Of a stretch of 34,967 nt of DNA, positions 6,204 through 24,706 are shown piece by piece. Below the pieces are notes generated by a model. It searched no databases, was not told the origin of the DNA, and saw only the letters and a list, made by a program, of their open reading frames with translations. Position numbers and translations under genes: made by a program. This stretch comes from a virus: the IMG/VR virus record IMGVR_UViG_3300025770_000055, positions 1-34,967 of that record; one strand, written 5' to 3'. Position 1 is the first letter of the stretch; every line of letters begins with the position of its first letter.

Positions 6204-7900
6204 TTAAATTAAAGACTGTAAGATTTAAGAATTTCTTAGCTGCTGGTAATCGGTTTATTGAAATAAAGTTAGACCAAAAGCCAATGATGTTAATTGTCGG
6301 TAAGAATGGTGCTGGCAAGTCTACGTTGATTGATGCTATTACTTTCTCGTTATTTGGTAAGCCATTTAAGAAGATTAATAAAGGACAGTTAATGAATACT
6401 GTCAATGAGAAAGATTTAATGACTGAGATTGAATTTTCTGTTGGTAGTGTAGAATGGAAAGTTCGCAGAGGGATGAAACCTGCTATCTTTGAAATATATC
6501 AAAATGGTAAGGTTATAAATCAAGATGCTAAGGCTACTGATTATCAGAAATATTTAGAAGAGAAAATTCTTAAATTAAATTTTAAATCATTTACACAGAT
6601 AGTAGTGTTAGGGTCTGCTTCATTTGTTCCTTTTATGCAATTGTCTGCTAATGATAGGCGAATTATTATAGAAGATATATTGGACATTGGTATATTTTCT
6701 GTTATGAAGAATTTACTTAAAGATAGAATAAATTCTTTGAAAGAGGAGATTAATGAGTTAGAATATAATATTAAACTATTGCAAGAGAAGATTAGCTTAC
6801 ATGAAAAACATATAGATGAATTAAAAGCCAAATCCTCTAAGAAAATGGAAGATAATAATGATAAAATTAAATCACTTCAAAATACTATTATTGCAATAGA
6901 ATCTGAAATTGATGACCATCAGGAAAAAATATGGGTATTTAGGTCTGAGATTGAAGATCAGACGGATATTATAAAAAAGCATAAAGATTTGGATAGCTAT
7001 AAAATGCAAATTGATAAAAACTTAAAGAAGTTAAACAAAGAAAATGAGTTTTTTGAAGATAATGAGAATTGTCCTACCTGTGAACAAGATATTGATGAAA
7101 CATTTAAAAAGGATAAATTACAACAAATATCCATTAATATTAATGACATGAATGATGGTATAGATAAGTTAAATATAGAAGTAAATAAAGTAACAGATCG
7201 TTTAGGTGAAATTGCCGAATGTAATGATAAGATACAAGATGTAGAAACCCTTATTACAAGAAGACATAGTGATATAAGAACACATCAAACATTAATTAGT
7301 AGACTTCAGGAGGAAATATCTGAAGCTAATGTTCATATAGATGATGATAAAAAAAGAATAATGGAAACTGAATTAGATGAAAGTAAAAAGACTAGATTAC
7401 AATATGTAGAACAAAGGAAGTATTATGATATATTAAATACTATATTAAATGATAAGGGAATTAAAACAAGAATAATACGAAAATATCTTCCAGTTATTAA
7501 TAAGCATGTAAATAACTATCTCAAGGATATGGATTTCTTTGTAAATTTTCAATTAGACGAAAATTTCAATGAATCTATTAAAAGTAGACATAGGGATGAT
7601 TTTTCATATTATTCTTTTTCAGAAGGGGAAAAGAAACGAATTGATATATCATTGTTATTGACTTGGCGAGATATTGCCGCCATGAGGAATAGTGTTAATG
7701 TTAATCTTCTTATATTGGATGAAATATTTGATGCAAGTTTAGACCAAACTGGTATGGATGATTTGATGAAGTTATTTTATTTATTGAAAAATACTAATTT
7801 GTTTGTTATTTCACATAAACTTGATATATTAGATGATAAATTTTCTACTAAGATTACGGTAGAGAAGGTTAATAATTTTTCACAAATGGTGGTAGAATGA
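6200..7900 (+). CDS. 46: Recombination nuclease ATPase subunit gp46 (SbcC/Rad50-like)
   Basis: gp46 is the Rad50-like ATPase partner of gp47. The 566-aa protein (T4 560 aa) has Walker A GKNGAGKST (34-42), long coiled-coil arms (about 170-430) broken by the zinc-hook CPTC (291-294), the ABC signature SFSEGEKKR (S474), Walker B LLILDEIFD (D507, E508) and a C-terminal His switch ISHK. The start overlaps the HAD stop as ATGA and the stop overlaps the following membrane-protein gene as ATGA. Confidence 0.96.
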   Translation: MIKLKTVRFKNFLAAGNRFIEIKLDQKPMMLIVGKNGAGKSTLIDAITFSLFGKPFKKINKGQLMNTVNEKDLMTEIEFSVGSVEWKVRRGMKPAIFEIYQNGKVINQDAKATDYQKYLEEKILKLNFKSFTQIVVLGSASFVPFMQLSANDRRIIIEDILDIGIFSVMKNLLKDRINSLKEEINELEYNIKLLQEKISLHEKHIDELKAKSSKKMEDNNDKIKSLQNTIIAIESEIDDHQEKIWVFRSEIEDQTDIIKKHKDLDSYKMQIDKNLKKLNKENEFFEDNENCPTCEQDIDETFKKDKLQQISININDMNDGIDKLNIEVNKVTDRLGEIAECNDKIQDVETLITRRHSDIRTHQTLISRLQEEISEANVHIDDDKKRIMETELDESKKTRLQYVEQRKYYDILNTILNDKGIKTRIIRKYLPVINKHVNNYLKDMDFFVNFQLDENFNESIKSRHRDDFSYYSFSEGEKKRIDISLLLTWRDIAAMRNSVNVNLLILDEIFDASLDQTGMDDLMKLFYLLKNTNLFVISHKLDILDDKFSTKITVEKVNNFSQMVVE

Positions 7901-8106
7901 AGCAGAGTAAAAGTGGAAGTTTTTTTGAATCATGTATTACTGTTGGTAGCGGGTTTCTTATATCATTAATAGCTATGGAAATTTTATTTCCAATATATGA
8001 TATTCATACAAATATACAAACGAATATACAAATAGTTTGTATAATGACCGTTGTTTCTATTATAAGAACATATCTTGTTAGACGACTTTTTAATCGGAGT
8101 TTATAA
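7897..8106 (+). CDS. Small two-helix membrane protein (DUF7220-like)
   Basis: This 69-aa protein has two predicted transmembrane segments (about residues 14-33 and 44-60) and a basic tail RTYLVRRLFNRSL. The plan resembles small phage membrane proteins with a 'S.IE......G..I.....L.P......' first helix and an 'IR.Y..RR.FN' ending. It overlaps gp46 by 4 nt. Function is unknown; it would sit in the host inner membrane. Confidence 0.7.
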   Translation: MKQSKSGSFFESCITVGSGFLISLIAMEILFPIYDIHTNIQTNIQIVCIMTVVSIIRTYLVRRLFNRSL

Positions 8107-15485: not shown

Positions 15486-16152
15486 TGAAACGATTGATGT
15501 TCTTAAGAACTTTTCAAGTATTAATCAGTCTATTGCTATTACACCGGGCACTAAACTTAAAACGGTTAATTCATTAAAGAACATTCTAGCACATGCAAAT
15601 GTTAAAGAGGATTTTCCAGATTCATTTGCTATTTATGATTTGATTAAATTTTTAGGTGTATTATCTAATATGACTGAACCAGAATTAGAGGTTGCTTCTG
15701 ATAATAAGTCTGTTACCATTTCTGATGGTGGGGATGGAAAAATTAAATATCGTTGTGCTGATTTGGATTATATTGTAAAGCCAGAAAAAGATATTGATAT
15801 GCCAGAATGTGAAATCAATTTTACTCTTAAAGAGTCTGTCTTTGATTGGATTAATCAACAGGCAACTGTACTTCAATTAAATGATTTTTACTTTAAAGGA
15901 TGTGAGAAGTCTGGTAAAGTTATTATGGGAGCAACTAATAAAAAGAATGATTCAGAACATGAACTTTCTAAAGTTGTTGGTGAAGGTGCAAAAAAGACGT
16001 TTAATATTCTTATGAGGAAAGAGAATCTTAAATTAGTTCCGGGTGATTATAATATATCTATTTCATCTAAAGGCATTTCCCATTTTAAAAATGTTAAAAC
16101 AGATTTGGAATATTGGATTGCATTGGAACCTGCTAGTGAATACGGTGAGTAA
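15472..16152 (+). CDS. 45: Sliding clamp (T4 gp45)
   Basis: gp45 is the trimeric processivity clamp of gp43 polymerase and the mobile coactivator of late transcription. From ATG 15472 the product is 226 aa (T4 228 aa), starting MKLSNETIDVLKNFSSINQS, with FAIYDLIKFLGVLS and a C-terminal KLVPGDYNISISSKG and EYWIALEP, all closely matching T4 gp45. An in-frame ATG at 15454 exists. I prefer 15472 because AGGAG lies upstream and the T4 N-terminus starts there. The stop overlaps the next gene as TAATG. Confidence 0.95.
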   Translation: MKLSNETIDVLKNFSSINQSIAITPGTKLKTVNSLKNILAHANVKEDFPDSFAIYDLIKFLGVLSNMTEPELEVASDNKSVTISDGGDGKIKYRCADLDYIVKPEKDIDMPECEINFTLKESVFDWINQQATVLQLNDFYFKGCEKSGKVIMGATNKKNDSEHELSKVVGEGAKKTFNILMRKENLKLVPGDYNISISSKGISHFKNVKTDLEYWIALEPASEYGE

Positions 16153-16751
16153 TGTTTTATATATACCCAAATAAAATTTCTTCTGAAAAATGTGATGAAC
16201 TCCTTGAGAGTTATTTGAAGAAACATACATTTGAAGACGCGACAATTCAAAAGGAGGATGGACAAGATTCTGATGATTCATACCGTCGTGGTAAGGTTGC
16301 TTTTATAGAACCAGCACGCGATTTTCTACATGAGACAATAGATGATTGTATTACAACTTCTAATGATAATTATTTTAATTATAATATCAGAACGCTTGAA
16401 CCAGTTCAGTTTGCCAGATATGAGGTAGGTGATTATTATCATTGGCATCAAGATTATCGCCATACAGATAATGGCATATCACGTAAATTATCATTTATAT
16501 TAAATTTAACAGACTATAAAGACTATGAAGGCGGCCGCGTGGAATTTTTTGAAAGTTATGGTAAGGCTTCAGGGTTTTCATCAGTATTTATTGATGGAAA
16601 AGCTTATGAGGAAGAAGAGGTTAGAGACTTAGCATGGTCAAAAGGAACTGTATTAGTATTTTGTAGTAGAGATTGGCATAGGGTAACCCCAATAACAAAA
16701 GGTATTCGTTATTCGATAGTTTCATGGATATTAGGACCACATTTGGTATGA
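16152..16751 (+). CDS. PKHD-type 2OG-Fe(II) hydroxylase
   Basis: This 199-aa protein is a clear prolyl-4-hydroxylase-like (PKHD) oxygenase. It has YEVGDYYHWHQD (iron ligands H99, D101), RKLSFILNLTDYKDYEGGRVE, and SRDWHRVTPITKGIRYSIVSW (H176 as third ligand, R186 binding 2-oxoglutarate). It should hydroxylate a protein or small-molecule substrate with O2 and 2OG. It lies between the clamp and clamp-loader genes and overlaps both neighbours (TAATG, ATGA). It is the best preserved of the three 2OG oxygenases here. The substrate is unknown; ribosomal or replication proteins are conceivable. Confidence 0.9.
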   Translation: MFYIYPNKISSEKCDELLESYLKKHTFEDATIQKEDGQDSDDSYRRGKVAFIEPARDFLHETIDDCITTSNDNYFNYNIRTLEPVQFARYEVGDYYHWHQDYRHTDNGISRKLSFILNLTDYKDYEGGRVEFFESYGKASGFSSVFIDGKAYEEEEVRDLAWSKGTVLVFCSRDWHRVTPITKGIRYSIVSWILGPHLV

Positions 16752-17817: not shown

Positions 17818-18747
17818 ATGAATAAATTAAGATATAGCGAGATGTTTTATTCGATTCAAGGTGAGGGTAGGTATATTGGAGTACCTTCGGTCTTTGTTAG
17901 AGCATTTGGTTGTAATTTTGAATGTACTGGTTTTGGTCAAGCTCGAAATCCGGATCTTTGGTTAGCTCCAGAACAAATGCCACACAACCAAAACCATCCG
18001 CAAGTAACATCAATTAAGGATTTACCTGTTCCTCATGTTGGCTGTGATAGTTCGTTTAGTTGGGGAAAGAAATGGGGACATCTAGCAGATTATGAGGATG
18101 CTACTACCATAGTAGATAAAGTAAATAACTTTGTGAATACGGAAGTGTATAATGATAATCCAGTTCATTTAGTTTTGACCGGCGGTGAACCACTTCTTCG
18201 CGGTTTCCAGCCAGTTATGAGTGATATTGTTCTTCATAGAAAACTCCGCATAAAAAATATAACATTTGAAACTAATGGAACACAAGCATATCCATTTAAT
18301 GATTTAATTGATACACATGACAAGTATCAATGGTATTGTGAAAGATTTGGTACATTAGAACACAATCCTTTTAAAGGCGATCCAGCTTATTGCTTGCCTA
18401 ACGGTATAACGTGGTCGGTGTCTCCAAAACTTTCTCTTTCAGGTGAGAGTTGGAATGCGGCAATTGTTCCTGATGCTTTATTGACTTATAATTCATGGCC
18501 AGATTCTTATCTATATCTTAAATTTGTAGTTAGAGATAAACATGATATGCAAGAGGTTCAAGAAGCAATTATAGCATATAGGGATGCAGGTGTTAAGATA
18601 GATTCAGTTTATTTAATGCCAGAGGGAGGTAGAGCGGAAGGCTTAAAATTGACAAGTGAAGATGTAGCAAAACTTTGTTTGCAACATGGATATAGATATA
18701 GTCCGAGACTTCATATTGATTTATTCGGTAATGCATGGGGGACTTAA
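17818..18747 (+). CDS. queE: 7-carboxy-7-deazaguanine synthase (QueE), radical SAM
   Basis: QueE rearranges 6-carboxytetrahydropterin to 7-carboxy-7-deazaguanine. The 309-aa protein has the family N-terminus YSIQGEGRYIGVPSVFVRAF, an iron-sulphur cluster region GCNFECTGFG ... VGCDSSFSW, LVLTGGEPLL (the SAM-binding GGE), FETNGT, and WSVSPKLS near the middle. The cluster cysteines would be C32, C36 and C76. That spacing, with ~39 residues inserted before the last Cys, is unusual and makes the protein longer than typical QueE (~220 aa). It is the first gene of the operon and probably translated from a leaderless mRNA. Confidence 0.93.
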   Translation: MNKLRYSEMFYSIQGEGRYIGVPSVFVRAFGCNFECTGFGQARNPDLWLAPEQMPHNQNHPQVTSIKDLPVPHVGCDSSFSWGKKWGHLADYEDATTIVDKVNNFVNTEVYNDNPVHLVLTGGEPLLRGFQPVMSDIVLHRKLRIKNITFETNGTQAYPFNDLIDTHDKYQWYCERFGTLEHNPFKGDPAYCLPNGITWSVSPKLSLSGESWNAAIVPDALLTYNSWPDSYLYLKFVVRDKHDMQEVQEAIIAYRDAGVKIDSVYLMPEGGRAEGLKLTSEDVAKLCLQHGYRYSPRLHIDLFGNAWGT

Positions 18748-19196
18748 TGGTAGATAATAAAAAAAGCAGAACCGGTAAAACCGGTATGAGGGGCATTCCT
18801 CAAACAGATAAACATTTAGATAGAACAATGTATGTGGATGATAATCCAAATAGTCGTAAGGGGATTTTTAAATGCACAGATGATTTAGTCAGTTCATTAG
18901 AAAAATGTGCAGCTGATTTAAAAATTTCAAGAAGTGAAGTAATAAGAAAAGCATTAACATCTTTTTGTAGATATCAGGAGGATGCGAAAGCATTTGGCAA
19001 GAATAGATTCTATTCAACACCAAAAACATTTGAAATGTGGGTTAGTGAACGGATGGATATTATGAACACTTTATTGGAAATTGAAAAATTGAATAAAACA
19101 ATTAATGAGAACACTAAGTCTCCGGAAGTAAAATTTTTATCACAGCAAATTAATCTCTTGGCTAAAATGATGAACCTTACACATAAATTAATATGA
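18747..19196 (+). CDS. Ribbon-helix-helix-like DNA-binding protein
   Basis: The start at ATG 18747 overlaps the queE stop as TAATG and follows GGGGG. The 149-aa product has a basic N-terminal tail (DNKKSRTGKTGMRG) and a ribbon-helix-helix-like segment at about 39-76 (KGIFKCTDDLVSSLEKCAAD, then LKISRSEVIRKAL), followed by a helical C-terminal half. RHH proteins dimerise and bind operators. As the second gene of the modification operon it could autoregulate it, or bind phage DNA for another purpose. Confidence 0.65.
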   Translation: MVDNKKSRTGKTGMRGIPQTDKHLDRTMYVDDNPNSRKGIFKCTDDLVSSLEKCAADLKISRSEVIRKALTSFCRYQEDAKAFGKNRFYSTPKTFEMWVSERMDIMNTLLEIEKLNKTINENTKSPEVKFLSQQINLLAKMMNLTHKLI

Positions 19197-19660
19197 ATAC
19201 TCCAAAATACAATTATTATTATGACGAATATTATAACGACATGGCAGCTTTATATGATAGGTATGTTAATAGAGTTAATCCTCATGTGGTTGGGGTCTAT
19301 AGGGGTTCGTTACCCATCGCGACACACCTTAGTAATGTTTTAGAATGTCCAATGAGTATTATTAAGTTTCAATCATATGATGGTAATGATAAGAAAGCAG
19401 AATGGCTTTTGAATTTAACAGAAGATAAAAGTATTCGTGATAAACCACAATTTTTTCCTTATTTGATTGTCGTGGATGATATTTATGATACTGGTACGAC
19501 TTTTAGAGCTATTAAAGAATTACCAGAATTTCATAATAATCCAGATTATTCTTTGACAGCATTATTTGGTAATGCAAACGATGATAAGGTTTATTATCAG
19601 CATGAACAATTATATAGGTGGATTGTTTTTCCTTGGGAACGTGTTAAAGGAGGTATGTGA
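19193..19660 (+). CDS. Type I phosphoribosyltransferase (purine PRTase-like)
   Basis: The 155-aa product has the PRPP-binding motif VVDDIYDTGTT (93-103), an upstream GVYRGSLPIATHLSN (34-48) like the first loop of hypoxanthine/xanthine-guanine PRTases, and a C-terminal WIVFPWE typical of the purine enzymes. It should attach ribose-5-phosphate from PRPP to a purine base. It overlaps its neighbours (ATGA, TGATG) inside the 7-deazaguanine operon. A plausible role is recycling guanine that a DNA transglycosylase releases. A role on a 7-deazapurine base cannot be excluded. Confidence 0.82.
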   Translation: MNTPKYNYYYDEYYNDMAALYDRYVNRVNPHVVGVYRGSLPIATHLSNVLECPMSIIKFQSYDGNDKKAEWLLNLTEDKSIRDKPQFFPYLIVVDDIYDTGTTFRAIKELPEFHNNPDYSLTALFGNANDDKVYYQHEQLYRWIVFPWERVKGGM

Positions 19661-20112
19661 TGAAATATCAAAGTACAAAAACGTATGGCAATGAAAGAGG
19701 GTTTAGTGCTTGTTTCAGACAATGGAGAGCAGAAACTAGTCATTGCAGATTTTTGCATGGCTATAGTTTGGGATTTCGTTTTGTATTTCAAGCAAACAAA
19801 TTGGATGAAAGAAATTGGGTTTATGATTTTGGTAATTGTGGATGGATAAAAGAATTTATTGAAAAGAATTTTGACCATAAGTTAGCGGTTGCCGCTGATG
19901 ATCCTGAATTGCTGTATCTGAAAGGTTGTGAGACTTTTGGTAGTGCGGAGGTTGTAGTAATGGAAGATGGTGTTGGTTGTGAAAGGTTTGCAGAATATGT
20001 TTATAAGTATGTACAGCCGATAGTTAAAGATCAAACAAAAGGGAGAGTTCAGTTAAAAAGTGTAGAAGTATTTGAACATGGTTCTAATAGTGCGATTTAT
20101 ATAAAGGAGTAA
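19660..20112 (+). CDS. queD: 6-carboxytetrahydropterin synthase (QueD), divergent
   Basis: QueD makes 6-carboxy-5,6,7,8-tetrahydropterin from dihydroneopterin triphosphate. The start at ATG 19660 has AGGAGG 6 nt upstream; a GTG at 19657 is less likely. The 150-aa protein has FSACFRQW (15-22), SHCRFLHGYS (27-36), WVYDFG and FDHKLA. In the usual family the zinc ligands are FxAAH and HGH; here the first His is Phe19 and the last is Tyr35, with only H28 and H33 kept beside C29. This looks like a phage-type subfamily with a changed metal site. It is flanked by the PRTase and FolE genes. Confidence 0.85.
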   Translation: MKYQSTKTYGNERGFSACFRQWRAETSHCRFLHGYSLGFRFVFQANKLDERNWVYDFGNCGWIKEFIEKNFDHKLAVAADDPELLYLKGCETFGSAEVVVMEDGVGCERFAEYVYKYVQPIVKDQTKGRVQLKSVEVFEHGSNSAIYIKE

Positions 20113-20115
20113 TAT

Positions 20116-20802
20116 ATGAGTGATGAGTTATTTAGTGATGAAGTTAGACAAAGAATGAAAACAATAAAGCACAAGCATTTTGCAAATGATACTATATATT
20201 CTTATCTCGACGAGAATGATGTTCAAAAGATTGAAGATGAAGTAGCATGTGCATTTCAGGGTGTATTAAAAGCATTAATTATTAATACTGAGGAGGATCA
20301 TAATACACAAGACACAGCACGTAGAGTTGCTAAGATGTATGTGCGTGAGATTTTTAAAGGCCGTTATAGCTCGCCGCCTGACATAACTGCATTTCCAAAT
20401 GCAAAACAATATGATCAATTATATATGACGGGTCCTATTAGTGTTGATTCGACATGTGCACATCATTTCCAGCCAATCTCTGGTAAGTGTTATATTGGAA
20501 TATTTCCAGGTAAGAAGGTAATTGGTTTATCCAAGTTTAATAGAATGGTTGATTGGGTTGTATCAAGACCGCAAATACAAGAGGAGATGACTGAACAAAT
20601 TGCAGATATGATTGAGGTTGAAACTGAAGCAAAAGGCATAGCTGTTATTGTAAAGGCAGAACATTTTTGTATGACAGCAAGAGGTGTTAAAGAACACGAG
20701 AGTGATATGATGACTTCTGTACTTCGTGGAGACTTTTTAAAGATAGATCATTTGAAATCTGAATTCTTTTCTTTATTGAGTACTATGAAAGGCATGAAAT
20801 AG
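20116..20802 (+). CDS. folE: GTP cyclohydrolase I
   Basis: FolE converts GTP to dihydroneopterin triphosphate, the first step of the 7-deazaguanine pathway. The 228-aa product has the zinc site CAHHF (C114, H117) and C185 in AEHFCMTARGV, plus KVIGLSKFNRMVDWVVSRPQ and QEEMTEQIADMI, all standard for type I enzymes. AAAGGAG precedes the ATG by 5 nt. The N-terminal ~45 residues are variable. The gene ends in TAG overlapping the GTG start of the next. Confidence 0.95.
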   Translation: MSDELFSDEVRQRMKTIKHKHFANDTIYSYLDENDVQKIEDEVACAFQGVLKALIINTEEDHNTQDTARRVAKMYVREIFKGRYSSPPDITAFPNAKQYDQLYMTGPISVDSTCAHHFQPISGKCYIGIFPGKKVIGLSKFNRMVDWVVSRPQIQEEMTEQIADMIEVETEAKGIAVIVKAEHFCMTARGVKEHESDMMTSVLRGDFLKIDHLKSEFFSLLSTMKGMK

Positions 20803-21347
20803 TGGAGATAATAGATAATTTTTTACCATTTGAGGAATTCTTGCCTATACAAAATATGATGTTAGGCAATGAATTTCCATGGTACTATAATGATTATATT
20901 GCCTATGATCCTGATGAAAAGAATATGTTTGTACCACCCGGAAAGTCTGATTGGAATGATTTTCAATTTATTCATGTTTTTTATCATTTAAATAGACAAT
21001 ATGGTTATCAAGAAATCTGTAGTGCATATATGGAACTTATGCATCCCATATTGCAGCGGTTAAAAATGTTTTGCTTATTGAGATGTAAAGCTAATTCAAC
21101 AACATGTACACCTAAGGAGAATATACCAAGTGGATTTCATTGTGACATGGAATATGATGCAACTACTGCCGTTTTTTATCTTAATAGTAATGATGGTTAT
21201 ACGGTATTTAAAGATGGAAAAAAAGTAGAAAGTGTAGCAAATAGGTTAGTAAAATTTCCAACATTAAAAGAACATTCGGGTGTAAGTTGTTCTGATAATA
21301 AGAGACGTGTTGTAATTAATTTTAATTATATAGAGAATCTACGATGA
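20802..21347 (+). CDS. 2OG-Fe(II) oxygenase-like protein, GTG start
   Basis: The start is GTG 20802, overlapping the folE stop by one base. The 181-aa product shows an HxD iron pair in SGFHCDMEYD (H113, D115), then TTAVFYLNSNDGYTVFKDG, a distal His in KEHSGVS (H158) and RRVVINFNY (R168 or R169), matching small phage 2OG oxygenases. It lies between folE and the transglycosylase gene with a 4-nt overlap on the far side. It is therefore a candidate for oxidative tailoring of the modified base, though a protein substrate is equally possible. Confidence 0.75.
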   Translation: MEIIDNFLPFEEFLPIQNMMLGNEFPWYYNDYIAYDPDEKNMFVPPGKSDWNDFQFIHVFYHLNRQYGYQEICSAYMELMHPILQRLKMFCLLRCKANSTTCTPKENIPSGFHCDMEYDATTAVFYLNSNDGYTVFKDGKKVESVANRLVKFPTLKEHSGVSCSDNKRRVVINFNYIENLR

Positions 21348-22675
21348 ATGATATGACTTATATTATGTCTGGTGCCTCGATGGCATTGAAACCGGGCATG
21401 GGAACTAAACAAGATGATGATATCTTTTCTGGTATGGTTGCTGATACTATTAAAGAATTTGATTCTGGTGTGAATTATGAAATAATGTTTAATGCATATA
21501 ATGAAGTAAATGCTATGGTAAAATATTTCGCTAAACATAATTATTTTGGAACTAAGTGGCATGCCGATTCTGGCGGACTCCAGATGATTACTTTAGGTAA
21601 AGAGATTACAGAGGAATTGAAAGATCAGGTATATAGAGTACAGGCACAATATTCATCTTACGCAATGTGTTTTGATGAATTACCTATTCATGTGCTTGAC
21701 TTAAAAGGGAAGCAATCACGAATTGATTTATCCGGTAGACGCTATATAGTAGAATGGGCAAAACAAAAAGCACTTAATACGGGTAATAATGTTAAAAGAC
21801 AGATTGAAGTATTTCGTGAAATGAAATCGGATTCAAAGGTATTTTTAATTTGTCAAGGTAATAATAGAGATGATTTTGTAGAATATTTTAAGAACGCAAT
21901 ATCTGTTATTCCTAAAGAATATTATTCATCAATAGCGGGTATTGCATTATCAGCCGCCTGTACTGGTCTTGGTAGATTGGAGTCTATACAGATGTTAGGT
22001 TCTTATCGGTTTATGGACATACCAAAAGAAATTGGTAATAAATTACATGTATTAGGATTTGGATCTAAAAAACGTTTATGGCCATTATTACTTTTAAAAG
22101 AATCTGGTTATATTGACAGGGATATTACCTTTGATTCATCTTCACATGCTATTAAACCAATATTAGGAGAGTTTCGCGATGAGGATGGAAACGATCATAA
22201 ACTTGGCACAGATCCAGATGATGAGCCTGAAACTGTATTACAGCAGGGTAATACCGTTCAACTACAGATTTTAAAAGCGAACCAGTTTTTATATAAGAAG
22301 TATGGTCATATTTTGAAACAATATTATAATATGGATTTTGAAGAATTTTATGAGATTGTAGCTAAGAAGGATGTTCATACTTCTGCACGATATAATTTAT
22401 CATGTAAAAGACAAGTTACTACTCATTTATATCATAGATGGTTACAGGCATTTGAATCATGTTTTCGTTTTGGTAAAGAATTATTAAAAGAACGACGGGA
22501 TATGAGGGAAGGAAAATTTGATTCTGGTATACCAGCAATGAATGATTTAATTAATGTTAAAACAAAAGAAGATTTCGAAAAATGGTTTAAGGGGTTTAAA
22601 AATGTTACGCCTTCAAACCCTATTATAAGATGTAACACATTGGAGGATGTAGAAACAAATAAATTACCTATATAA
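21344..22675 (+). CDS. dpdA: DpdA-type DNA guanine transglycosylase (TGT homologue)
   Basis: The 443-aa protein follows the order of TGT motifs: HADSGGLQ (D75, the proton-handling Asp of DSGGFQ), CFDELP (D111, base recognition, TGT FDECTP), LICQGNN (TGT VQGG), VLGFGSKKRLW (TGT MGVG region) and ITFDSSSHA (D264, the expected nucleophile, TGT FDCVMPTR). The zinc site of tRNA TGTs (CxCxxC...H) is absent, as expected for phage DpdA enzymes that swap guanine for a 7-deazaguanine in DNA. An acidic insert (RDEDGNDHKLGTDPDDEPE) follows the nucleophile. The setting among preQ0 synthesis genes strongly supports DNA modification. Subfamily DpdA2 seems likely but is not proven. Confidence 0.85.
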   Translation: MNDMTYIMSGASMALKPGMGTKQDDDIFSGMVADTIKEFDSGVNYEIMFNAYNEVNAMVKYFAKHNYFGTKWHADSGGLQMITLGKEITEELKDQVYRVQAQYSSYAMCFDELPIHVLDLKGKQSRIDLSGRRYIVEWAKQKALNTGNNVKRQIEVFREMKSDSKVFLICQGNNRDDFVEYFKNAISVIPKEYYSSIAGIALSAACTGLGRLESIQMLGSYRFMDIPKEIGNKLHVLGFGSKKRLWPLLLLKESGYIDRDITFDSSSHAIKPILGEFRDEDGNDHKLGTDPDDEPETVLQQGNTVQLQILKANQFLYKKYGHILKQYYNMDFEEFYEIVAKKDVHTSARYNLSCKRQVTTHLYHRWLQAFESCFRFGKELLKERRDMREGKFDSGIPAMNDLINVKTKEDFEKWFKGFKNVTPSNPIIRCNTLEDVETNKLPI

Positions 22676-22687
22676 TGGAGGAAAGTG

Positions 22688-23491
22688 ATGGTCGAATTTA
22701 CACATGATAGTATTAAATTTTTAGACGATAGAGTAATTAAATTACCAGAGGCGGATAAAGTTGTTTCGATTTTATCTGGTGGAATGGATTCTTCAATTAT
22801 GACCATTCTGTTGGTAAAATATTATGGTGCTGAAAATGTTTATCCTATATCTTTTGATTATAATCAAAAACAAGTAGTAGAAATAGATAGAGCAAAGGCA
22901 TTATGTAAAAGAATTAGAACTGCAGAACATAAAACATTTGATTTATCTGTATTAGGTGAAATAGCCAAACCAATGTGTGCTAACATTGCAGGTACAGATA
23001 TTGAAATGCCCACCATTAAAGATGTATTAGGAGATCCACAACCAGTTACATATGTTCCTTTCCGTAATATGATTTTGTTAACCTTAGCTATGTCATATGC
23101 AGAAACTATAGATTCAAATGATGTATTTACTGGTTTACAAGTACATGATGAATATGGTTATTGGGATACAACTGGTGCATTTGTTGATTCATTGAATGCT
23201 GTTGCTAAACAAAATAGAACGCATTGTGTGGATATACATGCACCATTCTTACAACTTTCAAAAATTGATGAATTAAAAATATGTGAGGGAATGGATGCTA
23301 TTTCCTTGCTTCAGCATAGCTTAACATGTTATAATCCTAAAGATGGAAAAAGTTGCGGGAAGTGTCCATCATGTTCGGAGAGGATTAACGCTTTTATGAA
23401 ATTGAATCTTGTAGATCCGATTGATTATCAGATAGAGATTCCATGGCGCCAAACGGCATTTGATTTCCAAAATAACTGGAGTAATGTATAA
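22688..23491 (+). CDS. queC: 7-cyano-7-deazaguanine synthase (QueC)
   Basis: QueC converts 7-carboxy-7-deazaguanine to preQ0 with ammonia and ATP. The start at ATG 22688 has GGAGG 5 nt before it; a GTG at 22685 is possible. The 267-aa protein has the PP-loop SGGMDSS (30-36), SFDYNQKQVVEIDRAKAL, YVPFRN (VPGRN in most QueC) and the zinc site C214/C223/C226/C229 (CYNPKDGKSCGKCPSC). It is immediately followed by a glutamine amidotransferase gene (TAATG), a gene pair that recalls the GAT-QueC fusion. Confidence 0.94.
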   Translation: MVEFTHDSIKFLDDRVIKLPEADKVVSILSGGMDSSIMTILLVKYYGAENVYPISFDYNQKQVVEIDRAKALCKRIRTAEHKTFDLSVLGEIAKPMCANIAGTDIEMPTIKDVLGDPQPVTYVPFRNMILLTLAMSYAETIDSNDVFTGLQVHDEYGYWDTTGAFVDSLNAVAKQNRTHCVDIHAPFLQLSKIDELKICEGMDAISLLQHSLTCYNPKDGKSCGKCPSCSERINAFMKLNLVDPIDYQIEIPWRQTAFDFQNNWSNV

Positions 23492-24108
23492 TGTGTTCTA
23501 TAATTGGTTCTTTTGATAAAAACAAGTTAGCAGAATTGGCTGATCTTAATAGATATCGCGGTGAACATTCACATTCATTATATGTATTTTGCCCCGAGAC
23601 TTATGGCATCAAATTTCAACATAAAGCTCTTGGTTCATTAAATTTTAATGAACATGAATTACCATCAGGATATATGGTTGCACATCAGCAAGCACCGACT
23701 ACTAAGAAATGGAATAATAATATCCATCCAGCTGAATGGAGTAATAATTTATTGTGGCATAATGGTATAATTAAGGCACCGACGGTTAAGAGATTAAAAG
23801 AATTGCATAAAACCGATGAAACATGGGATACTAAGTTAATGTTATATAGTTTAGATAAATTCCATGATTCTTTAGAATCTATAGATGGAAGTTTTTCTTG
23901 TCTATGGATGCGGGGTCCTGAATTAATGCTATTCCGGAATGAAATAAGTCCAATGTTTATTGACGATGATTTTAATATTTCTTCGACTAAATTTAAAGGT
24001 GCGAAGTCCACTGAAGCTAATACTATGTATTTTTTTGATATTAAATATAGGCAATTAGGTGAAGATAGGAAATTTTTAACTGTGAATAATCCTTATTATG
24101 GCATATAA
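23491..24108 (+). CDS. Class II glutamine amidotransferase domain protein
   Basis: The 205-aa product begins MCSIIGSF, so removal of Met exposes the catalytic N-terminal Cys of an Ntn glutaminase. LNRYRGEHSHSL, MVAHQQAPTT, LLWHNGIIK and SIDGSFSCLW match the substrate and oxyanion segments (R, HNG, D) of class II GATs. It has no synthetase domain, so its ammonia must be used by another protein. QueC lies directly upstream with a 1-nt overlap. GAT-QueC fusions make archaeosine in some archaea and occur in phage 9g. I infer that this stand-alone domain works with QueC or the transglycosylase product. Confidence 0.85.
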   Translation: MCSIIGSFDKNKLAELADLNRYRGEHSHSLYVFCPETYGIKFQHKALGSLNFNEHELPSGYMVAHQQAPTTKKWNNNIHPAEWSNNLLWHNGIIKAPTVKRLKELHKTDETWDTKLMLYSLDKFHDSLESIDGSFSCLWMRGPELMLFRNEISPMFIDDDFNISSTKFKGAKSTEANTMYFFDIKYRQLGEDRKFLTVNNPYYGI

Positions 24109-24706
24109 ATTTCCTAATTATAACTTAATGATATATAAATTATCATTAGCACATATTGTTATTATTGCATTATCAAATGCATTAATCCATATTCCAATAG
24201 ATGTGTTTGGAATAAAATTAACTTGGGCTGCATTTACTTATCCGTTTATAGTGGTTATTACTGATTTAACGGTGAGGGCATTAGGAAAGGGTATAGCAGC
24301 AAAAACAATATATAGAGCATTTCCGGTAGCGATTCTTATTTCTATTTTAGTGGTTAATTTAGAAGGTAGAGGTTTTGACTTTGCCCTTAGAATTGGGTTA
24401 GCAAGTGCATGTGCTTATGGGATAGGGACATTAATAGACGTACATATTTTTCAAAAGATAAGAGAACATTATAATGCTTGGTGGATTGCACCAATGCTTT
24501 CGACAGTAATAGCTAATGTTATAGATACATATACATTCTTTATTGTTGCTTTTAAGGGTTCAGAGGATGTTTATATGGCAACACATTGGGCAGAGCTGGC
24601 TACATCATTGGTTATTTATAAAATAGCGATAGGGATTATATTGTTTCTACCCTTATATGGTTGTGTATTGCGGCGCTTTAACCTTATAAATATTAAGTGT
24701 AAGTAA
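24098..24706 (+). CDS. yhhQ: YhhQ/VUT-family queuosine precursor transporter
   Basis: The 202-aa protein has about six hydrophobic helices and the VUT-family segment TYPFIVVITDLTVRALGKGI followed by AAKTIYRAF, typical of YhhQ, which takes up preQ0/preQ1 in E. coli. It overlaps the amidotransferase gene by 11 nt. It would sit in the host inner membrane and supply 7-deazaguanine precursor alongside de novo synthesis. It is the last gene of the cassette; a late promoter element lies in its final codons. Confidence 0.92.
   Translation: MAYKFPNYNLMIYKLSLAHIVIIALSNALIHIPIDVFGIKLTWAAFTYPFIVVITDLTVRALGKGIAAKTIYRAFPVAILISILVVNLEGRGFDFALRIGLASACAYGIGTLIDVHIFQKIREHYNAWWIAPMLSTVIANVIDTYTFFIVAFKGSEDVYMATHWAELATSLVIYKIAIGIILFLPLYGCVLRRFNLINIKCK
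24685..24692 (+). promoter_or_regulatory. Late promoter element TATAAATA
   Basis: An exact TATAAATA 28 nt before the ATG at 24721, inside the end of yhhQ. The predicted leader of ~23 nt carries AAGGAG. It would separate late expression of the gene at 24721, and perhaps gp62, from the modification cassette. Confidence 0.6.

Follow-up and report, generated by a model that had tools for sequence, protein, structure and literature searches.

QueC, the 7-cyano-7-deazaguanine synthase, has been described as ammonia-dependent, and the motifs YxQxHxxE and YPDC belong to its substrate pocket, with the tyrosine residues being essential (PMC13329287). In phage 9g, a glutamine amidotransferase (GAT) and QueC form a Gat-QueC fusion protein. 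This protein together with DpdA yields archaeosine (dG+) in E. coli, and the host QueC is not needed (PMC6884629). The DNA of two Vibrio phages with separate QueC and GAT genes has also been analyzed. In 6E35.1a, which encodes DpdA2, QueF, QueC, and GAT, 15% of dG was modified, and the mass of the modified base fitted dPreQ1 (PMC12028318). In nt-1, which encodes DpdA2, ArcS, QueC, and GAT, 232 dPreQ0, 72 dADG, and 44 dG+ were found per 10^6 nt (PMC6884629). The passages of the two reports considered here do not name the GAT gene. Neither 6E35.1a nor nt-1 is a dG+ phage. Our literature search, which had partial coverage such that a mention elsewhere is possible, retrieved no earlier account of a stand-alone GAT beside a phage queC.

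A queC gene and a stand-alone GAT gene in a deazaguanine operon

The window analyzed here is the 34,967-base IMG/VR virus record IMGVR_UViG_3300025770_000055, which is a fragment. The QueC-GAT pair is located on the plus strand within a FolE/QueD/QueE/DpdA2 operon. The gene order on this strand starts with a QueE-like radical SAM 7-carboxy-7-deazaguanine synthase (17818..18747; 27% identity to QueE of Pseudomonas phage pf16 over 328 aa, E 3e-25) and a ribbon-helix-helix gene, followed by a phosphoribosyltransferase-like gene (19193-19660), a QueD-like 6-carboxytetrahydropterin synthase (19657..20112), the GTP cyclohydrolase I FolE (20116..20802), and a 2OG-Fe(II) oxygenase-like ORF (20802..21347; phrog_274). 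Then follow a DpdA2-type DNA guanine transglycosylase (21344..22675; phrog_10773), QueC (22685..23491), the GAT (23491..24108; phrog_12378), and a Vut_1/YhhQ-type queuosine-precursor (preQ0/preQ1) transporter (24098..24706; TIGR00697, 111.7 bits versus a cut-off of 50.95). Genes for QueF, DUF5591, or a formyltransferase were not found in this fragmentary record.

The assignment of DpdA2 is based on its homology to the nt-1 DpdA2 (29% identity over 419 aa, E 2e-45) and on a TGT/DpdA fold. The best fold matches of its structural model (pLDDT 75.6, moderate) were the DNA preQ0 insertase DpdA (7ui4), which was the first Foldseek hit, and the archaeosine TGT 1j2b. The transporter gene suggests that a host or environmental precursor is salvaged; a transporter of this type is also found beside QueC-GAT in four other loci (L003, L034, L038, L041). 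The phosphoribosyltransferase-like gene has weak counterparts in six loci (L018, L028, L045, L046, L056, L090). The 2OG-Fe(II) oxygenase-like gene between FolE and DpdA2 is kept in the clade of the window (L009, L013, L088), and its PHROG label, "DNA endonuclease V", seems doubtful given its HxD...H...R motif. Further genes of this kind are present at 16152-16751 of the window and, between QueC and GAT, at 3703-4386 of L013. Extra tailoring of the base by these oxygenase-like proteins is possible.

The QueC ORF starts with a GTG at 22685, such that the ATG at 22688, from which the original prediction had counted, is the second codon. The protein scored 152.5 bits with NCBIfam TIGR00364 (cut-off 150.3) and matched Pfam QueC (PF06508) with an E-value of 9e-50. 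It carries SGGMDS, VPFRN, and C-x8-CGKCPSC, in agreement with the QueC signatures SGGxDS, VPxRN, and C-x8-CxxCxxC. The canonical motifs YxQxHxxE and YPDC are absent and are replaced by YNQKQVVE and YWDT. Throughout the family of paired QueCs, YxQxQxxE and Y[WH]D[T/C] stand in place of the E. coli-type motifs, and, judged by these sequences, the paired QueC is a variant QueC subfamily.

The GAT consists of 205 amino acids, begins with MCSIIGSF, and its start codon overlaps the stop codon of QueC by a single base (TAATG). The arrangement of QueC first and a separate GAT gene next, with a one nucleotide overlap, was confirmed. The dN/dS values of the window GAT versus its relatives were about 0.23-0.34, and it is therefore a real gene; a chance ORF was ruled out by these values and by the conservation. 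As a single sequence, the window GAT had no convincing Pfam match, and a PDB search yielded only chance kinase matches. Among 52 family members, 22 matched GATase_7 and 19 matched GATase_6 (best 5e-10), and the family profile matched GlmS structures in the PDB with an E-value of 4e-6. The AlphaFold2 model (pLDDT 93) was similar to PurF (Z 19.9), GlmS (Z 18.4), AsnB (Z 16.6), and EgtC (Z 16). According to this model, 23491-24108 encodes a class II GAT fold (Ntn hydrolase).

The active site was conserved only in part. Cys2, Arg23-Gly24, His65, Asn91-Gly92, and Asp113 were invariant in all 88 family sequences. Asn91, Gly92, and Asp113 align with their counterparts in GlmS, PurF, and AsnB, i.e., the Asn-Gly oxyanion hole and the Asp for the amino group; in GlmS, the equivalent of Asp113 binds the alpha-amino group. 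The arginine of the H-x-R motif, in contrast, is Gln67 in 88 of 88 members, whereas all 39 other class II GATs in the alignment have Arg, Gat-QueC fusions included. Hence, the claim of a complete N-terminal-Cys GAT domain held for Cys2, Asn91-Gly92, and Asp113, and failed for this arginine. Gln67 occupies the position of Arg73 of GlmS, which binds the glutamine carboxylate. Because Gln67 replaces a carboxylate-binding arginine, the donor may be something other than glutamine, or glutamine may be bound differently. Lys95, Trp112, and a C-terminal F-x-T-x-x-N-P-Y motif are family-specific invariants, and it is a guess that Lys95 stands in for the missing Arg. The protein thus appears to be a variant of the class II GAT fold family and a putative glutaminase.

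Distribution of the pair and variation of the downstream enzymes

The arrangement is not peculiar to this stretch and turned out to be widespread: 300 IMG/VR contigs encode a GAT relative, of which 80 were retrieved, and the phage collection contained 51 records with a near-full-length GAT match. The pair is present in KVP40, nt-1, 6E35.1a, and many other Vibrio phages, in Vibrio phage 2.275.O, and in Pseudomonas phage pf16. Among prokaryotic genomes, with one genome per species, only four contigs contained a GAT relative, and all four carried the phage-type gene set. A match in phage T5S1 (25%) was rejected as a member of the phrog_12378 family, as this GAT is of another kind, carries the motif HNRYAT, and is encoded among amidoligase genes. 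This T5S1 protein (L005, 6001-7278) is a class II GAT with an N-terminal Cys and the usual Arg, and its cluster contains amidoligases, an ATP-grasp protein, and a class I-like GAT.

The order QueC then GAT on the same strand was found in 84 of the 85 loci having both genes, with a gap of at most 65 nt in 68 of the 84, although the loci are related and locus counts are therefore not independent. In the exception (L089), the GAT is located elsewhere in the cluster, and no fused QueC-GAT ORF was seen in the loci retrieved. When loci were picked by QueC alone, the GAT was present in 76 of 78; in the two remaining contigs, the sequence stops 1 and 1026 bases past QueC. The distance matrices of QueC and GAT were correlated (r 0.62), with a maximum of 0.14 in 1000 permutations. 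Identity to the window QueC was 48-54% in the sampled carriers and below 32% in the other sampled entries of the phage collection. QueC followed by GAT is found widely, in many aquatic phages with modified guanines in their DNA, and the two form a nearly obligate pair.

The enzymes that would act downstream of QueC were not uniform. Fifty-two loci were intact, i.e., they contained FolE upstream of QueC and GAT. The nitrile reductase QueF was present in 40 of them and absent from 12. The combinations were QueF with DpdA2 (18 loci), QueF with phrog_19058 and a formyltransferase (21), QueF with phrog_19058 (1), phrog_19058 only (7), and DpdA2 only (5), the last class including the window. The short protein phrog_19058, which is weakly linked to the queuine transglycosylase family, was found in place of DpdA2 in 29 of the 52 loci (L022, with genes at 6782-7573 and 7561-8094, is one of these loci). 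The formyltransferase (PF00551) accompanied phrog_19058 in 21 of 22 loci with QueF and in none of the 7 without QueF, which suggests formyl-preQ1 DNA. The QueF proteins of the three phages checked contained both a QueF_N and a QueF domain, like the bimodular nitrile reductases. In nt-1, a DUF5591 gene (ArcS core) and no QueF was found, whereas 2.275.O, pf16, and 6E35.1a encode QueF and no DUF5591; the nt-1 ArcS homologue (L002, 5318-5998) is short and has DUF5591 as its only domain. QueC-GAT is thus constant among differing transglycosylases and tailoring enzymes. Therefore, the GAT most likely acts with QueC at the step common to all of them, from 7-carboxy-7-deazaguanine (CDG) to preQ0. QueF requires free preQ0. 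The published DNA of 6E35.1a (dPreQ1; PMC12028318) and of nt-1 (mainly dPreQ0; PMC6884629) is in line with this step.

Function and origin of the pair

We consider it likely, on balance, that QueC, together with the GAT encoded downstream of it, is a glutamine-dependent preQ0 synthase of two subunits. Gene order, fold, conservation, the near-obligate linkage, and the variation of the downstream enzymes are results of the computation; the complex, the glutaminase activity, and the product are inferred. The GAT would hydrolyze the glutamine amide via its N-terminal Cys and hand the ammonia to QueC, which, with ATP, would convert CDG via the amide to preQ0. DpdA2 would then swap preQ0 into DNA, directly in the window phage or after tailoring by QueF or another enzyme in its relatives. 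For the window phage, the predicted product is dPreQ0, with preQ0 salvage through the transporter. Asparagine synthetase has the same division of labour, and its synthase domain and QueC are both members of the ATP-pyrophosphatase superfamily. Counting against such a glutamine-dependent preQ0 synthase are Gln67, the ability of QueC to use free ammonia, the trace of dG+ in nt-1, and the YWDC motif in the measured carriers nt-1 and 6E35.1a (the window has YWDT). Of the original prediction, the two-gene unit of QueC and a class II GAT, expected to depend on glutamine, is supported.

Its proposed product, dG+, did not fare as well. It is unlikely that the two genes encode an archaeosine synthase of two subunits that, like Gat-QueC of 9g, converts preQ0, free or in DNA, to G+. 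The dG+ made by the 9g protein with DpdA in E. coli and the trace of dG+ in the carrier nt-1 (both PMC6884629) would fit such an activity, as would the finding that the Cys of YPDC is changed in both GAT-linked types of QueC. In addition, the window's own clade is without QueF and ArcS in the available sequence, which leaves room for dG+ there. However, QueF, present in 40 of 52 intact loci, would compete for preQ0, and the measured carriers had dPreQ1 (6E35.1a; PMC12028318) or mostly dPreQ0 (nt-1; PMC6884629). The trace of dG+ could be accounted for by nt-1's own ArcS homologue, and in sequence the pair is not particularly close to Gat-QueC. Nor can dG+ be read from YWDT, because pf16 and many metagenomic loci combine YWDT with QueF. 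In a further reading, quite improbable in our view, the GAT would be an N-terminal-Cys amidohydrolase whose substrate is not free glutamine but a different amide donor, a deazaguanine amide, or a protein, or it would assist QueC structurally or as a regulator. Gln67 in 88 of 88 sequences, together with Lys95, Trp112, and F-x-T-x-x-N-P-Y, would be in line with this, as would the altered substrate motifs of the partner QueC. In contrast, Cys2, the Asn-Gly pair, and Asp113 are all invariant, as they would be in a working amidotransferase, and next to a ligase that uses ammonia is where a glutaminase would typically be expected. There is some chance, although a low one, that the pair is a widespread two-subunit nitrile (preQ0) synthase of phages in which an atypical class II GAT, without the carboxylate-binding Arg, supplies a remodelled QueC with nitrogen from an unusual donor or binds glutamine in a new way, with the motifs of GAT and QueC having changed together and being locked as a pair.

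The origin of the pair is a separate matter. The original prediction had regarded it as a split and reversed Gat-QueC, and as an evolutionary intermediate or an alternative arrangement of the fusion. Descent from the fusion, with the GAT released and moved downstream, would be compatible with a preQ0 synthase, and we regard it as very unlikely. AU tests did not reject one clade of paired and fused QueCs (p 0.39 and 0.45), and PHROG 1550 unites the window QueC with a longer QueC. In the free QueC tree, however, the clades are set apart, with support of 100/100 for the paired QueCs and 100/100 for the fusions. The original prediction had also proposed a tree of the GAT domain with fusions and other class II GATs; its base was poorly supported, and common origin with the fusions, which were those of the phage type, was neither shown nor rejected. 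A reduced GAT tree united the pair and the fusion (SH-aLRT 89, with a long-branch warning). The GAT profile scored GlmS with 29 bits, PurF with 18, and Gat-QueC fusions with at most 10, the active-site motifs differ in both subunits (for QueC, YPDN in the fusions versus Y[WH]DT), and fused QueC-GAT ORFs were absent from the loci analyzed. With the unsettled base of the GAT trees, the AU results, and the profile scores, a split from the fusion is unproven.

Comparison with known systems

As a nearly obligate partner of QueC in hundreds of phage contigs, the GAT would be an overlooked core gene of DNA guanine modification in phages, and it would tie this modification to the glutamine of the host. 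For KVP40-type phages, a function is thereby proposed for a conserved "hypothetical" gene. A GAT next to QueC should not be read as dG+, and the change from Arg to Gln raises the question of donor binding in a class II amidotransferase.

The closest relatives are in the Vibrio phages KVP40, nt-1, and 6E35.1a, which have the same two genes in the same order in a DpdA2 and FolE/QueD context, with a one nucleotide overlap in nt-1 and 6E35.1a. Their pairs are annotated as exsB/queC plus a hypothetical protein or "nucleophile aminohydrolase" (phrog_12378), and their GATs are 29-33% identical to the window GAT. They differ in that nt-1 has ArcS, 6E35.1a has QueF, and the QueC motif is YWDC, whereas neither enzyme is present in the window record and the motif is YWDT. 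The Gat-QueC fusions of phage 9g and archaea also combine a class II GAT and QueC in a DNA deazaguanine pathway. However, they are one polypeptide with the GAT first, have kept the Arg, and make dG+, whereas the window has separate ORFs with QueC first; the fused QueC has YG[SC]R and YPDN motifs and is 25-28% identical to the window QueC. Asparagine synthetase B, GlmS, and PurF share the N-terminal Cys, the Asn-Gly oxyanion hole, the Asp, and the fold (Z 17-20) with the GAT, but their carboxylate site holds Arg, and their GAT and synthase are in a single chain. In the two-subunit archaeal GMP synthetase, ligase and GAT are likewise neighbouring separate genes, but the GAT is of class I (PF00117) and the substrate is different (PMC13329287). 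Compared with these systems, the pair is a new, widespread QueC variant and probably a glutamine-dependent preQ0 synthase.
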